Source: Robiginitomaculum sp.
GTDB lineage: Bacteria > Pseudomonadota > Alphaproteobacteria > Caulobacterales > Maricaulaceae
Length of the DNA: 32,721 nucleotides
Assembly (NCBI GenBank): GCA_021776675.1
Contig: JAJFFM010000113.1
Location: 1-32,721 of the forward strand
Reading direction: 5' to 3'
Shown: one piece after another, positions 13,987 to 19,652 of the stretch
Layout of the letters: each line of letters begins with the position of its first letter
How positions within the stretch are numbered: position 1 is the first letter of the stretch
The notes under the pieces: generated by a model
Databases searched by the model: none
Seen by the model: only the letters and a program-made list of their open reading frames with translations
Told to the model about the DNA's origin: nothing
Program-made: the position numbers and the translations under genes

Positions 13987-15045
13987 TTATTTCTTAAGAC
14001 CGTGTTTGCGTAGTAGCCCCCTGAATTGGTGATAGGTCAGGCCTAGGTATTTCGCCGCCTTGCCTTGATGGTTTTTGCTGTACTTTAAAGCTTCTTGTAT
14101 AATAGTCAGCTCAAAGGCATCTGTACGTTCCGTGAGGCTTTTGCCTGAAATGTCATTTGCGGCAGGTATGGATGCATGACTAAACTCACCTTGGTCAGCT
14201 ACACTCTGATGTTCAGCCTGATGTTCAGCGTTTTTTTGTTCCGCCCTTTTTTGATTAGGATGGGCCATTCTCAATTGCCAGGGCGTATCAAACGGATCAA
14301 GATTGATGTTGGTAATCGGTACATCAAGGCCATCCTCGTCGTTCCAAGCACGCCCTACGGCTCTTTCTATGACGTTTTTCAATTCTCGCACATTGCAAGG
14401 CCAATCATAGGACTGCAAAAATTCAATGACCTCGGCGCTAAACCCTGCGAAACTGTCTTCGCCCAGGACCGTGACCATGTTGGCAGCAAATTTTTCGGCC
14501 ATTGGCATAATGTCCGTTTTGCGTGCGCGGAGCGGCGGCAAAGTTATGACATCAAATGCCAATACAGATAAGAGGTTAGAACTGAAACGCCCTTCTGCAA
14601 CCTCAGCCCTTAGATCTACTGCGCTTGATGATAATATACGAACATCAACACTAATGTCTTCCGTACTGCCTATAGACTTGAATGAGCCAGTTTCTATCAT
14701 GCTCAGTAGTTTTTCCTGAACGGCCATAGGCATGGCTTCGATATTATCTATAAAGAGTGTGCCGCCCTCTGCTTCTTCTAGCAAGCTTGTCGCAAGCCCT
14801 GATGCAGCGCCGAAAATACGCGCCTCAAGAGTTTCCCCATCCATGGCCGCACAATTTACGGCTTGCCATGTTTGCTCCCAGCGTGGTGATAAGAAATGCA
14901 GGCGTCCTGCCACCGATGTTTTGCCTGTACCGTTCTCACCGACGACCAAAATAGGCTTATCAATTGCCGCTAAACCCGAAATCGAATCTAATGTCACCAG
15001 CCATGCAGGGCTCTGCCCTATGAGTTTTTGCGCTATTTCTACCAT
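13987..15045 (-). CDS. pspF: PspF-like AAA+ enhancer-binding-protein homologue with degenerate ATPase/sigma54-contact motifs and an intact Fis-type HTH
   Basis: GENGTGKTSVAGRLHFLSPRW (Walker A + W56 position), C-terminus 'AAKYLGLTYHQFRGLLRKHGLKK' matches PspF; divergent from pspA. Confidence 0.88.
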   Translation of the reverse strand: MVEIAQKLIGQSPAWLVTLDSISGLAAIDKPILVVGENGTGKTSVAGRLHFLSPRWEQTWQAVNCAAMDGETLEARIFGAASGLATSLLEEAEGGTLFIDNIEAMPMAVQEKLLSMIETGSFKSIGSTEDISVDVRILSSSAVDLRAEVAEGRFSSNLLSVLAFDVITLPPLRARKTDIMPMAEKFAANMVTVLGEDSFAGFSAEVIEFLQSYDWPCNVRELKNVIERAVGRAWNDEDGLDVPITNINLDPFDTPWQLRMAHPNQKRAEQKNAEHQAEHQSVADQGEFSHASIPAANDISGKSLTERTDAFELTIIQEALKYSKNHQGKAAKYLGLTYHQFRGLLRKHGLKK

Positions 15046-15184
15046 ATTTAGTATATATAGCTAAACTTATGTAGTGTAAATAACTAGTTTTTAGTATTTT
15101 CCACTACTTGATATTTCAGCAAACCATCCATTTTCAGGGAATATCTATATATTTCAATGGTTTATAAATTTCGTGACTTTTTTT

Positions 15185-15200
15185 TGGAACTTGTCATTCT
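15185..15200 (+). promoter_or_regulatory. Degenerate -24/-12-like sequence TGGAACTTGTCATTCT upstream of the psp operon
   Basis: GG of the -24 element present; expected -12 GC reads TC (consensus TGGCACG-N4-TTGCT). Confidence 0.25.
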
Positions 15201-15336: not shown

Positions 15337-15492
15337 ATGACGTATCGTACACTTGATACCGAAACAACATTTACTGAGAGCAGCCTTTTAGGTGATTCAA
15401 GCGCTCCGGTTCGCCATTTACGAGCTAGACGCAGAGCATCGACACTTCGTCATCGTTCAAGCGGTGTAAGATTGTCCGGCTTTGGCATCTAA
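15337..15492 (+). CDS. Small ORF, 51 aa, Arg-rich: MTYRTLDTETTFTESSLLGDSSAPVRHLRARRRASTLRHRSSGVRLSGFGI
   Basis: Manual translation; purine-rich GAAAGAAGAGAG upstream of ATG; fills the pspF-pspA gap; not in supplied track because it is short. Confidence 0.55.
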   Translation: MTYRTLDTETTFTESSLLGDSSAPVRHLRARRRASTLRHRSSGVRLSGFGI

Positions 15493-15520: not shown

Positions 15521-15685
15521 ATGACCGACGAAGAATTTGATTACGAAAGCCGCACAGGAAGCCGCGCCCAAAAGCATCAAGATTATAAAGCAAAATTCTG
15601 GCGCTTCGTAAAATATCTCAGCACCCGTAAATTGGAATGCTGGGGATTTTTCGCCGCCGGCTATATCATCGCCACAATTTTTTAA
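15521..15685 (+). CDS. Small putative membrane protein, 54 aa: MTDEEFDYESRTGSRAQKHQDYKAKFWRFVKYLSTRKLECWGFFAAGYIIATIF
   Basis: Manual translation; AAGGAA upstream of ATG; charged N-terminus and hydrophobic C-terminal helix; immediately upstream of pspA. Confidence 0.65.
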   Translation: MTDEEFDYESRTGSRAQKHQDYKAKFWRFVKYLSTRKLECWGFFAAGYIIATIF

Positions 15686-15747: not shown

Positions 15748-16479
15748 ATGGGAATTTTTTCAAGAATGGGTGACATCATCAATTCCAACCTCAACTCAAT
15801 GATCGATAAAGCAGAAAATCCTGAAAAGATTACGCGTTTGATCATCCAAGAGATGGAAGACACATTGGTCGAAGTTCGCACCTCAGCCGCCCGCAATATC
15901 GCAGAAACCAAAGAATTGAGCCGCCGTGCAGACCAATATGATGCTCGCTCAAAAGAATGGGCCGATAAAGCGGAACTTGCTTTGACTAAAGGTCGTGAAG
16001 ACCTAGCCCGAGGCGCTGTGCAAGCCAAACAACAATCAGAGCAGATGGCTGCAGTCGTCCGTAAAGAAATAGAAATCTTAAACGAAGCTGTTGCCAAAGC
16101 AGATTCCGATTTGGAAAAACTGCAGGCTAAACTGAACGAAGCCAAAGCCAAGCACAAAGCCTTGATGATGCGCGGTAGCACTGCTACAAACCAAATTAAG
16201 ATGCGCAAGGTTATGACTTCTAACAAAGTTGACGATGCCCTTGCCCGTTATGAACGCATGGAACGCAAAGTAGACGAATTAGAAGCACATGTAGAAGCTT
16301 TCGACCTAGGTGGTGGTCTTGGTAATGGCCAGAGCTTAGAAAGCCAATTTGCAGCTCTGGAAGCTGATGACGCTGTAGAAGCTGAGTTAGCCACGTTGAA
16401 AAAAAGCCTTGGTAAAACAATGGGTAAAACGAATACCAAGCCCGCGAAACCCGCAAAAAAGGTTGCAGCTAGTAAATAG
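15748..16479 (+). CDS. pspA: Phage shock protein A (PspA/IM30 family)
   Basis: MGIFSRMGDIINSNLNSMIDKAENPEKITRLIIQEMEDTLVEVR...; coiled-coil Ala/Glu/Lys-rich. Confidence 0.96.
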   Translation: MGIFSRMGDIINSNLNSMIDKAENPEKITRLIIQEMEDTLVEVRTSAARNIAETKELSRRADQYDARSKEWADKAELALTKGREDLARGAVQAKQQSEQMAAVVRKEIEILNEAVAKADSDLEKLQAKLNEAKAKHKALMMRGSTATNQIKMRKVMTSNKVDDALARYERMERKVDELEAHVEAFDLGGGLGNGQSLESQFAALEADDAVEAELATLKKSLGKTMGKTNTKPAKPAKKVAASK

Positions 16480-16532: not shown

Positions 16533-16793
16533 ATGAGTGAATTAGCCTTAATGATCCCAATCGTTGCCATTGTAGGCGGCATCGGGGCCGGGATGCTTAA
16601 ATCCCACTATAAGCATAAAGAAAAAATGATGGGACATATGAGTGTGGACCAAATGGCAGAACTGGAACAAATGTCCAAAATTGCCGACATACTCGACCAA
16701 CGTGTCAATGTCCTGGAACGCATATTGGACGATGAAGTGCCAAATTGGAGAGAAAGTCCAGAAAGGAATGAAAGCCATGACAAAACGATATAA
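16533..16793 (+). CDS. pspB: Phage shock protein B
   Basis: 86 aa, N-terminal TM then 'MMGHMSVDQMAELEQMSKIADILDQRVNVLERILDDEVPNWRE'; position between pspA and pspC. Confidence 0.88.
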   Translation: MSELALMIPIVAIVGGIGAGMLKSHYKHKEKMMGHMSVDQMAELEQMSKIADILDQRVNVLERILDDEVPNWRESPERNESHDKTI

Positions 16794-17259
16794 AAATAAA
16801 TTCGACCGCGCCATGAACGATGCCAATTGGGAAGGTGATGATGATGGCTACGCATATTCAGCACCCCGCAAAATATTCCGCCGCAATAAGATAGACGGTG
16901 TCATGGGCGGGGTCTGTGCCGGGATTGGTGATTACCTAAATGTTGACCCGATTGTTGTTCGTATCCTTACTGTAATATCGTTCTTCATGACCGGCGTTAC
17001 TTTTTTCATCTATATCGGATTTTGGATTTTTACCCCGTCCGATAATCGGGCTCCTTACCGCCGTGAACATCGCCAGGCACGTAAAGCTCGACGGAAACAC
17101 CAAGATGATCCAAGCGAACCATTAACTCGTCCAGCAGCTAGCTACCGAACCGTAAGAGGTAAGTTTAGCTCACTTGAAGGCCGCTTACAGGACTTAGAAA
17201 AGTCAATTACATCAAGCGAATGGCAACTGCGCCGGGACTTCCGCGACTTAGAGAGTTAA
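16777..17259 (+). CDS. pspC: Phage shock protein C, PspC domain plus basic/coiled C-terminal extension
   Basis: Track ORF 16642..17259 probably over-extended; likely ATG 16777 overlapping the pspB end; 'KIDGVMGGVCAGIGDYLNVDPIVVRILTVISFFMTGVTFFIYIGFWIFTP'. Confidence 0.92.
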   Translation: MTKRYKNKFDRAMNDANWEGDDDGYAYSAPRKIFRRNKIDGVMGGVCAGIGDYLNVDPIVVRILTVISFFMTGVTFFIYIGFWIFTPSDNRAPYRREHRQARKARRKHQDDPSEPLTRPAASYRTVRGKFSSLEGRLQDLEKSITSSEWQLRRDFRDLES

Positions 17260-17665: not shown

Positions 17666-18703
17666 ATGCGTACAATTACCTATTTTAAATTAGCGACAAT
17701 TACCGCAACCTCTTGTTTGGCATTGCTTGCAAACACTGCGATCGCTAAAGATGCGCCGACCTTAACTATTCAAAACTTTATTGGTACGGTTGATGTTAGG
17801 ACTGGCAATTATGATAAAATCACTGTCACAGATGCTGACGGCGCAGACGTAAGCCAATTGGGCGCCAGCGTCTTGATTGATAATGATCAAACCATTAAAA
17901 ATACCAATTGCCGCAAATCCAATTCAAGTATTAAAATTTCTGTTGGTAGTTGGAAGTGGAATAAACGCAAAGGTGGGTATAAAAACCTTGATGCCTACCC
18001 TCAACTGAAAATTACGGCACCTGCCAATACACACCTTGTCATAGATAAAGCCATTATATTTGGCGATGTTGGCAATATTGGATCCGCTGATATTAAAATG
18101 CGTTCTTGCGGTGATCTGGAATTATCTGATGTCAACGGCCACACAAATTTAGGTGTTTCTGGATCAGGTGATTTTACCGCGCAAAATGTACAGAGCCTAA
18201 AAATTGGTCTTGCGGGCTCAGGTGATGTGAAAATCGCCAATGTAGCAGGCGCGGCAACAATAGCGAGCGCCGGGTCAGGCGACCACGAGATTGGAAATAT
18301 AGGCGGAAATTTTGACTATACCGGCGCTGGGTCTGGCGATCTGGATGCGGGTAATATCACTGGCAATGCTGAAATAACGACGGCAGGCTCCGGAGACGTC
18401 GAAATTGAACGCCTCGCAGGAAACCTTATTTATACAAGCGGTGGCAGCGGTAATTTTGACGCAGATTATGTCGGCGGCAAAAACCTTTCTAGTAAATCTG
18501 GCGGTAGCGGTACTGTGGAAATAGACGACGGCGATGTCGTGGAATTATATATAAAAGTCGGCGGTTCAGGCAATGTCCGGTACGACGGTAAATCAACAAA
18601 TGCTGAGCTTTATGCCAGTGGAAGCGGTGAAATTACGGTGCAAGAACCAAGCGGTAATTTGCGCAAGAAAAAACACGGTTCTGGCTCAATTCGCATCAGA
18701 TAA
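17666..18703 (+). CDS. Exported GIN/DUF2807-like (toast-rack-type) beta-solenoid protein, copy 1
   Basis: Signal peptide; repeated GSGD/GSGN motifs about every 20 aa; Cys pair (TNCRKSN, RSCGDLEL). Confidence 0.8.
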   Translation: MRTITYFKLATITATSCLALLANTAIAKDAPTLTIQNFIGTVDVRTGNYDKITVTDADGADVSQLGASVLIDNDQTIKNTNCRKSNSSIKISVGSWKWNKRKGGYKNLDAYPQLKITAPANTHLVIDKAIIFGDVGNIGSADIKMRSCGDLELSDVNGHTNLGVSGSGDFTAQNVQSLKIGLAGSGDVKIANVAGAATIASAGSGDHEIGNIGGNFDYTGAGSGDLDAGNITGNAEITTAGSGDVEIERLAGNLIYTSGGSGNFDADYVGGKNLSSKSGGSGTVEIDDGDVVELYIKVGGSGNVRYDGKSTNAELYASGSGEITVQEPSGNLRKKKHGSGSIRIR

Positions 18704-18737
18704 CAAACTAACCCACCAAAACAAAAGGGAAATAATT

Positions 18738-19652
18738 ATGCGTAACTTCACATCATTAAGTGCACTGGCAGCAGCAAGCTGTCTAACCCTATTTGGCGCA
18801 CCTGCATTTGCCAATAACGCGCCAGTTCTTAAGATAGAAAATTTTATTGGCACAATTGAAATCATCACTAGCAATACTGGCAAGATTACTGTCGAAAATG
18901 CGGACGGCGTAAAATCGGTGCGCTCTGGTTCCGACCTATCCATTGATGATGAAACTTCCGTCCGTAAATATAATTGCCGTACCAAAGGAAAGCATGTCCT
19001 CATCGGTAAAGGCAAATGGAGCGGGTTTTCCAATAAAGGGTTTAAAAACATCAAAGAATATCCGCATGTTAAAATTAGCGCCCCGCAAGACGTACATCTC
19101 GACATCAGTAGCTCCATCATTTTTGGTAAAGTCGACACCGTCGGATCTGCTCATTTACATATTGGGTCTTGTGGTGATTTGAAACTTGGTGATGTTACGG
19201 GTCAATTAGACTTATCCGTTTCGGGTTCAGGTGATGTAACCTTTGGCAATGCAGGCGTATCAGACATTAACATATCGGGTGCAGGTGATGTCACGGCAGA
19301 AGATTTGCAGAAAGCTGATATTGATGTTTCCGGTAGCGGCGATTTGGAGTTGGGTAACATTTCCGGCTCAACAAATATCGAATCGAGCGGCGCAGGCGAT
19401 ATTGAAATCAATAGCATTATTGGCGAAGACCTGACAATAAATGTCAGCGGCAGTAGCAGCATCTCAATCGACAGCGGTAGTGTCGACACATTATACATAC
19501 GAGCCTCAGGTGCCAGCGACGTTACGTATAATGGAAGCTCAAAAGACGCTGAAGCCCGCGCCAGTGGTGCCAGCGATGTCACTATACACAACCCATCCGG
19601 CCAATTGCGTACAAGTGATAGTGGTGCTGGGGACGTTAATGTCCGCGGCTAA
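18738..19652 (+). CDS. Exported GIN/DUF2807-like beta-solenoid protein, copy 2 (tandem paralogue)
   Basis: Likely start ATG 18738 (MRNFTSLSALAAASCLTLFGAPAFA), not 18573; aligns with copy 1 over the full length: NFIGT, Y/TNCR, SCGDL, SGSGD repeats. Confidence 0.8.
   Translation: MRNFTSLSALAAASCLTLFGAPAFANNAPVLKIENFIGTIEIITSNTGKITVENADGVKSVRSGSDLSIDDETSVRKYNCRTKGKHVLIGKGKWSGFSNKGFKNIKEYPHVKISAPQDVHLDISSSIIFGKVDTVGSAHLHIGSCGDLKLGDVTGQLDLSVSGSGDVTFGNAGVSDINISGAGDVTAEDLQKADIDVSGSGDLELGNISGSTNIESSGAGDIEINSIIGEDLTINVSGSSSISIDSGSVDTLYIRASGASDVTYNGSSKDAEARASGASDVTIHNPSGQLRTSDSGAGDVNVRG

Follow-up and report, generated by a model that had tools for sequence, protein, structure and literature searches.

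The pspF gene of the window (the whole stretch of DNA analysed, 32,721 nucleotides) encodes a protein without GAFTGA loop, catalytic Walker B glutamate or arginine fingers, and the psp operon beside it lacks a sigma54 promoter. PspF serves as the model for sigma54 activators, as does the psp operon for enhancer-dependent stress operons. In these marine bacteria, loss of the loop, matched by loss of the promoter, was found in four lineages, and rpoN is kept in the window genome. We propose that the window PspF is very probably a sigma54-independent, UAS-bound regulator of psp, i.e. a former sigma54 activator ATPase that would have been turned to a sigma54-free role.

A degenerate PspF beside a full psp operon

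The first-pass annotation had placed a 352-codon PspF homologue at 13987-15045, next to a full psp operon. These coordinates are right. The ORF lies on the minus strand (the plus-strand frame across the same positions contains many stops), and pspA, pspB and pspC adjoin it in the divergent pspF||pspA-pspB-pspC arrangement. NCBIfam TIGR02974 (pspF) is the top family for the 352-aa product (E 1.2e-103, residues 8-348), with the non-PspF family NorR as runner-up at 5.6e-56. The score of 346.9 bits falls short of the TIGR02974 equivalog cut-off of 443.55, while intact PspF of the same order mostly reach 440-500 bits. An AlphaFold2 model of the protein has a mean pLDDT of 77.8, with low values confined to residues 1-5 and the linker at 251-300. 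Its top PDB matches are all E. coli PspF AAA+ structures (TMt ~0.90, 44% identity), and hence the fold is predicted to be intact.

13987-15045, minus strand: pspF, degenerate (putatively sigma54-independent) form, 352 aa (ORF translation, TIGR02974, alignment to E. coli PspF)
14917-14940, minus strand: Walker A GENGTGKT, residues 36-43, kept (alignment to E. coli PspF)
14875-14898, minus strand: putative PspA-docking patch HFLSPRWE, residues 50-57, kept (family conservation; role of the YLW patch, PMC3791423)
14785-14808, minus strand: loop L1 scar AASGLATS, residues 80-87, GAFTGA deleted (alignment, 7-residue gap)
14743-14757, minus strand: Walker B LFIDN, residues 97-101, Asn in place of the catalytic Glu (alignment)
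14560-14586, minus strand: arginine-finger segment FSSNLLSVL, residues 154-162, neither arginine left (alignment)
14005-14067, minus strand: Fis-type C-terminal helix-turn-helix, kept (Pfam HTH_8; modelled helices 327-333 and 338-347)
15337-15492, plus strand: conserved small ORF 1, 51 aa, MTYRTLDT..., presumed to head the psp transcript (conservation)
15521-15685, plus strand: conserved small ORF 2, 54 aa, hydrophobic C-terminal tail (conservation)
15748-16479, plus strand: pspA (TIGR02977, 272 bits, above cut-off)
16533-16793, plus strand: pspB (TIGR02976, above cut-off)
16642-17259, plus strand: ORF with pspC, PspC domain at residues 79-133, true start probably further downstream (PF04024, TIGR02978)

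Motifs were compared in a phmmer alignment of window PspF with the solved E. coli PspF (2bjv); as that chain carries R168A, the wild-type R168 was read from a second alignment. Each loss described in the first-pass annotation was seen again. A 7-residue gap stands in place of the GAFTGA loop, Walker B LFLDE reads LFIDN (E108 to N), FRADLLDRL reads FSSNLLSVL (R162 to S, R168 to V) and sensor I ATN reads SSA. The elements it had listed as retained are likewise borne out by alignment or Pfam, these being Walker A, W56, N64, the NVRELKN sensor II segment (R227 is kept in the alignment) and the C-terminal HTH. Recovery of the missing motifs elsewhere in the ORF had been named as grounds for withdrawing the reading; no second occurrence of GAFTGA, the catalytic glutamate or the arginine fingers was found anywhere in the window ORF. 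Window PspF thus has a bEBP AAA+ domain that combines the L1/GAFTGA deletion with an intact Walker A, as in sigma54-independent bEBPs. It lacks the hallmarks of sigma54-dependent ones, namely GAFTGA, Walker B DE with arginine fingers, and a cognate -24/-12 promoter.

Degenerate PspF are common in the family and under selection

As the first-pass annotation had suggested, pspA-linked PspF were surveyed. Among 137 genomes of the window's family, ~75 PspF were read, and GAFTGA is missing in 47 of them. The 7-residue deletion recurs, together with the DN Walker B, in seven other loci of the window's genus at ~59-75% identity. Both states occur within single genera: genus g1 has eight loci (seven species) with the 7-residue deletion and DN Walker B, and four species with GAFTGA, DE and both arginine fingers, while g17 has three degenerate PspF (9-residue deletion, LFLDS) and two intact ones. 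Elsewhere, all PspF read from g2, g3, g5, g7, g9 and g12 are degenerate, and those of g4, g10, g11 and g18 are intact.

All 47 degenerate proteins lack both GAFTGA and E108 (N in 36/47). The arginine fingers are lost less uniformly, R162 being present in 27/47 and R168 in 33/47, and some relatives combine them with a loop of near-normal length (SFLDGREDTNGKF). As arginine fingers persist in many degenerate relatives, clades may differ in their use of ATP. Walker A residues G36, G41 and K42 are found in all 47, N64 and R227 in 46. The docking-patch residues H50, F51, L52, S53, R55, W56 and E57 are also invariant (47/47), although this is not a pure PspA signal, since H50 and R55 overlap with the needs of AAA+ function and oligomerisation (PMC3791423). 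In E. coli PspF, the patch on which PspA docks consists of Y51 (F in the degenerate window PspF), L52 and W56 (PMC3791423).

The reading frame is open in 47/47 degenerate PspF. The AAA+ domain of the window's clade has a dN/dS of ~0.13, and the HTH and the W56 segment come to 0.05 and 0.06, respectively; all three figures are approximate because synonymous sites are close to saturation. AAA+ pN/pS is 0.27 in this clade compared to 0.17 in intact relatives, and HTH conservation in degenerate PspF equals or exceeds that in intact ones. Judged by these substitution patterns, degenerate PspF are under purifying selection; the dN/dS values reject a pseudogene. A frameshift or assembly artefact, which the first-pass annotation had allowed for, was also rejected, as the same changes appear across many independent assemblies. 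One genome (G117) has two pspF-pspA loci (L096 and L069, on contigs C24 and C93), both with degenerate PspF, reflecting either a duplicated locus or a mixed bin.

The sigma54 promoter of pspA is lost together with GAFTGA

A scan of the pspF-pspA intergenic DNA for the sigma54 box TGGCAC-N6-TGCW found it in 24/24 intact family loci with readable upstream DNA, 129-136 bases from the pspF start (23 exact matches and one with a single mismatch), and in 0/47 degenerate family loci at the expected position. In a single degenerate locus (G111), a match with one mismatch lies at a distance of 281 bases, 5' of the second small ORF; such matches occur in 0.4% of shuffles. A later sample from other families, fetched once the pattern had been noticed, gave a box with 0-2 mismatches at 122-136 in 16/16 intact loci and none in the 4 degenerate ones. 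With the box in all intact and in none of the degenerate loci, regulator and promoter must have changed together each time. The best candidate in the window, TGGAACTTGTCATTCT, is positive under a loose criterion of up to 2 mismatches at the expected position, and was discarded as it lacks the essential -12 GC.

A check for rpoN, also suggested in the first-pass annotation, found the gene in the window genome. The sigma54 DNA-binding domain was detected in 123/137 family genomes, with many of the misses being incomplete genomes. Loss of rpoN was therefore rejected as the cause of the change. As read from the sequence, the psp circuit has left sigma54 while sigma54 stayed in the genome. No second, intact PspF was seen in the window genome, which is 82% complete. 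Besides PspF, this genome encodes two strong bEBPs: one is FlbD-like and has GAFTGA, the other is an NtrX that lacks the motif.

The first-pass proposal of a repurposed, sigma54-free PspF gains support from these data, the sigma54 box of pspA being absent in every lineage without GAFTGA and present in all that keep it, in the presence of rpoN. It is the loss of GAFTGA and of the promoter that carries the argument, because loss of E108 alone leaves sigma54 remodelling in E. coli PspF. The E108Q variant, a constitutive hexamer with <1% ATPase activity and 30-fold tighter ATP binding, still activates sigma54 transcription on pre-opened DNA (PMC4132715). GAFTGA, by comparison, is needed by E. coli PspF to engage sigma54, and most GAFTGA mutants fail (PMC7175178).

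The change occurred in four lineages

Three changes of state within the family are seen both in the PspF tree, calculated with the catalytic columns left out, and in the PspA tree. A single origin of all degenerate PspF in the family, and with it one ancient GAFTGA loss, was rejected by the AU test (p 0.0157, on a quick tree). The PspA tree is no species tree, since pspA is linked to pspF, and the pspF-pspA locus may have been transferred jointly between lineages. A fourth loss is found in family f5, where GAFTGA is missing from four PspF of genus g23 (L114-L117) located beside pspA; their clade is surrounded by intact PspF in the tree. Walker B still reads DE in two of these four, so loop loss can precede the Walker B change. 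L114-L117 may represent intermediate stages of degeneration. Beyond what the first-pass annotation had described, the change is thus recurrent in four lineages, with arginine fingers lost in only some of them. An independent-pairs test has 3-4 events to work with, too few for formal significance.

Enhancer sites persist and a sigma70-type promoter may replace the sigma54 box

The pspF-pspA intergenic region of the window contains the following candidate elements.

15048-15064, no strand assigned: putative PspF enhancer site (UAS) 1, TTAGTATATATAGCTAA, exact TTAGY-N7-RCTAA (consensus match)
15071-15087, no strand assigned: weaker UAS-like site 2, GTAGTGTAAATAACTAG (array statistics)
15091-15107, no strand assigned: UAS-like site 3, TTAGTATTTTCCACTAC, 1 mismatch (array statistics)
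15152-15164, no strand assigned: IHF-like site TTTCAATGGTTTA, 1 mismatch to WATCAANNNNTTR (similar fixed offset in most degenerate relatives)
15173-15178, plus strand: putative -35 GTGACT of a replacement sigma70-type psp promoter (consensus-like pattern)
15195-15200, plus strand: putative -10 CATTCT, 16 bp downstream of the -35 (consensus-like pattern)

For comparison, E. coli UAS I reads TTAGTGTAATTCGCTAA. A TTAGY-N7-RCTAA match with at most 1 mismatch is present in 40/47 degenerate loci, compared to 3% of shuffles. The array comprises up to three sites, at ~2, 23 and 44 bases, with frequencies of 0.79/0.34/0.60 in degenerate loci and 0.83/0.33/0.67 in their nearest intact relatives; the two arrays match. 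This form of the UAS was not seen in the degenerate loci of family f5. An IHF-like WATCAANNNNTTR with at most 1 mismatch occurs in 42/47 degenerate loci vs 29% of shuffles, mostly at an offset of 101-106, and this fixed offset is stronger evidence for the site than the match counts. In E. coli, IHF aids PspF binding to the UAS, pspA activation and pspF repression (PMC3709507).

At the place of the former sigma54 box, a GAC[AT]-N16-18-CA[AT]nnT pattern was found in 42/51 degenerate loci, 0/40 intact loci and 0.6% of shuffles, a count that is a description rather than a test, since the pattern was found by eye in the same sequences. Part of g17 and the degenerate clade of f5 deviate from this pattern. 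The UAS array lies ~65 to 125 bp upstream of the putative -35. RpoD is the likely sigma partner of this candidate promoter. An RpoH-type promoter was considered and rejected: in several of these genomes, the groES promoter reads CTTGACTC...CCTTATCT, unlike the psp promoter. On the opposite side of the region (15046-15110, minus reading), the pspF start codon is a few bases away from UAS 1, and a TATACT-like -10 overlaps with this site. The pspF mRNA may be leaderless and autorepressed.

Proposed mode of action and its alternatives

Window PspF would bind ATP without hydrolysing it. Such an ATP-bound, hydrolysis-poor protein is predicted from the retained Walker A together with E108N, as for R. 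capsulatus NtrC, which at sigma70 promoters must bind ATP but need not hydrolyse it (PMC10274813). Window PspF would occupy the UAS array beside the pspF start codon and there repress pspF; bound to these sites, it would also act at the psp promoter, on an RNA polymerase with a sigma70-family factor. Looping to this promoter is probably aided by IHF, and the role is probably that of an activator, by analogy with R. capsulatus NtrC. PspA docking on the HFLSPRW patch would restrain the protein. Membrane stress could then still be signalled via PspA without a sigma54 power stroke, as PspA would hold window PspF in check. The first-pass annotation had envisaged a regulator responsive to PspA or to nucleotide; the fully conserved docking patch suggests the former and the invariant Walker A the latter. 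Given that PspA patch, HTH, UAS and IHF-like site are all kept, PspA-controlled, enhancer-bound regulation of a sigma70-type psp promoter, coupled to pspF autorepression, is the simplest model.

The sign of regulation is less certain, with activation of psp appearing the likelier of the two in view of the upstream UAS position and the NtrC precedent. The same parts could act with the opposite sign, the degenerate PspF being a UAS-bound, IHF-looped repressor that holds the sigma70-type psp promoter down until relieved by PspA or stress. All activator machinery is indeed gone while UAS and IHF-like site are kept, and E. coli PspF with IHF represses its own sigma70 promoter (PMC3709507). However, the array is situated ~65 to 125 bp 5' of the -35 and not over the promoter, and repression would invert the feedback, since PspA inhibits PspF in the known circuit. 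We regard this branch as doubtful, though still deserving of weight.

Alternatively, the UAS sites may have been kept for pspF autorepression only, in which case the degenerate PspF would do no more than autoregulate its own gene or act as a PspA sink, with psp constitutive or under another regulator. The proximity of UAS 1 to the pspF start codon and its overlap with the TATACT-like -10 are in keeping with this, as is the resemblance of the new promoter to a free-standing sigma70-type promoter. Yet a purely self-regulating gene should decay, and AAA+, PspA patch and HTH are under strong purifying selection, with the pspF frame open in four lineages and the IHF-like site persisting between UAS and psp promoter. 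Hence, we consider such a restricted role improbable. Activation of sigma54 promoters elsewhere in the genome through a non-canonical loop appears very improbable: rpoN is present, and some relatives have arginine fingers and the near-normal loop, but the GAFTGA loop contacts sigma54, most of its mutants fail (PMC7175178), and the cognate sigma54 promoter is absent in every degenerate lineage. Ordinary decay of a functionless pspF on its way to loss, which would suit the several missing catalytic motifs and the somewhat faster AAA+ evolution of the window's clade (pN/pS 0.27 vs 0.17), is scarcely credible with an open frame in 47/47, dN/dS well below 1, invariant Walker A and PspA patch, and an HTH no less conserved than in intact relatives.

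Returning to a sigma54-independent regulator of psp, a broader picture can be put forward tentatively, at less than even confidence. At least four lineages would have been rewired in parallel from a sigma54 to a sigma70-type promoter, with enhancers, IHF loop and PspA brake kept. An ATP-locked PspF ring would activate the sigma70-family polymerase from distant enhancers, and PspA control in trans would replace ATP hydrolysis.

Relation to known systems

TyrR, HupR, VpsR/VspR and other unconventional bEBPs have a bEBP fold without a working GAFTGA loop; they are set apart from window PspF by their sensory domains and regulons. Sigma54-independent bEBPs without GAFTGA are already known, and the precedent invoked in the first-pass annotation for such proteins at sigma70 promoters is found in R. 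capsulatus and Caulobacter NtrC, which share with window PspF the L1 loop deletion and the sigma54-free regulation proposed for it (PMC10274813). These NtrC proteins are response regulators controlled by phosphorylation and devoted to nitrogen control. Window PspF, in contrast, has no receiver domain and would respond to envelope stress under trans control by PspA; it has furthermore lost Walker B and arginine fingers, and displays a matched promoter swap across lineages. NtrX (e.g. Brucella NtrX, or L003 on contig C138 of the window's own genome) is likewise an AAA+ bEBP without GAFTGA, but has a receiver domain, keeps the Walker B DE and has no psp linkage.

With E. coli PspF, the window protein shares the pspF||pspABC gene order, an AAA+ domain followed by a Fis-type HTH without N-terminal domain, Walker A, the W56-loop PspA patch, N64 and sensor II. 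The two loci also have in common the UAS sequence (TTAGTGTAATTCGCTAA in E. coli) and an IHF-like site between UAS and promoter. Window PspF differs in lacking GAFTGA, the Walker B Glu, the arginine fingers and a sigma54 promoter at pspA, and in scoring under the equivalog cut-off. The literature searched, with subscription journals mostly outside its scope, yielded no report of a sigma54-independent PspF, of such a change recurring or of a sigma54 promoter lost in step with it; in a 2024 PSP survey, PspF lies outside the detailed analysis (PMC11237479).

ATPase motor and sigma54 promoter have repeatedly been removed together, while the putative sensor contact, enhancers and bend site were kept. 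The matched before/after pairs within one genus bear on how an enhancer-bound AAA+ protein works without its motor. They also bear on the order of a sigma-factor switch, regulator vs promoter (in f5, L1 is lost and 2/4 still have DE), and on whether PspA inhibits PspF by ATPase control or by plain docking. Annotation of such degenerate pspF genes as sigma54 activators is wrong.

Neighbouring genes

Versions of small ORF 2 are found in almost all loci examined, including those of other genera and of family f5. Small ORFs 1 and 2 are possibly unannotated psp components, judging by their conservation. Located 3' of pspC, at 17666-19652 on the plus strand, are two similar repeat proteins, the first of which matches DUF2807 and Toastrack DUF4097. 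These fit the Toastrack-psp association reported for Alphaproteobacteria (PMC11237479).
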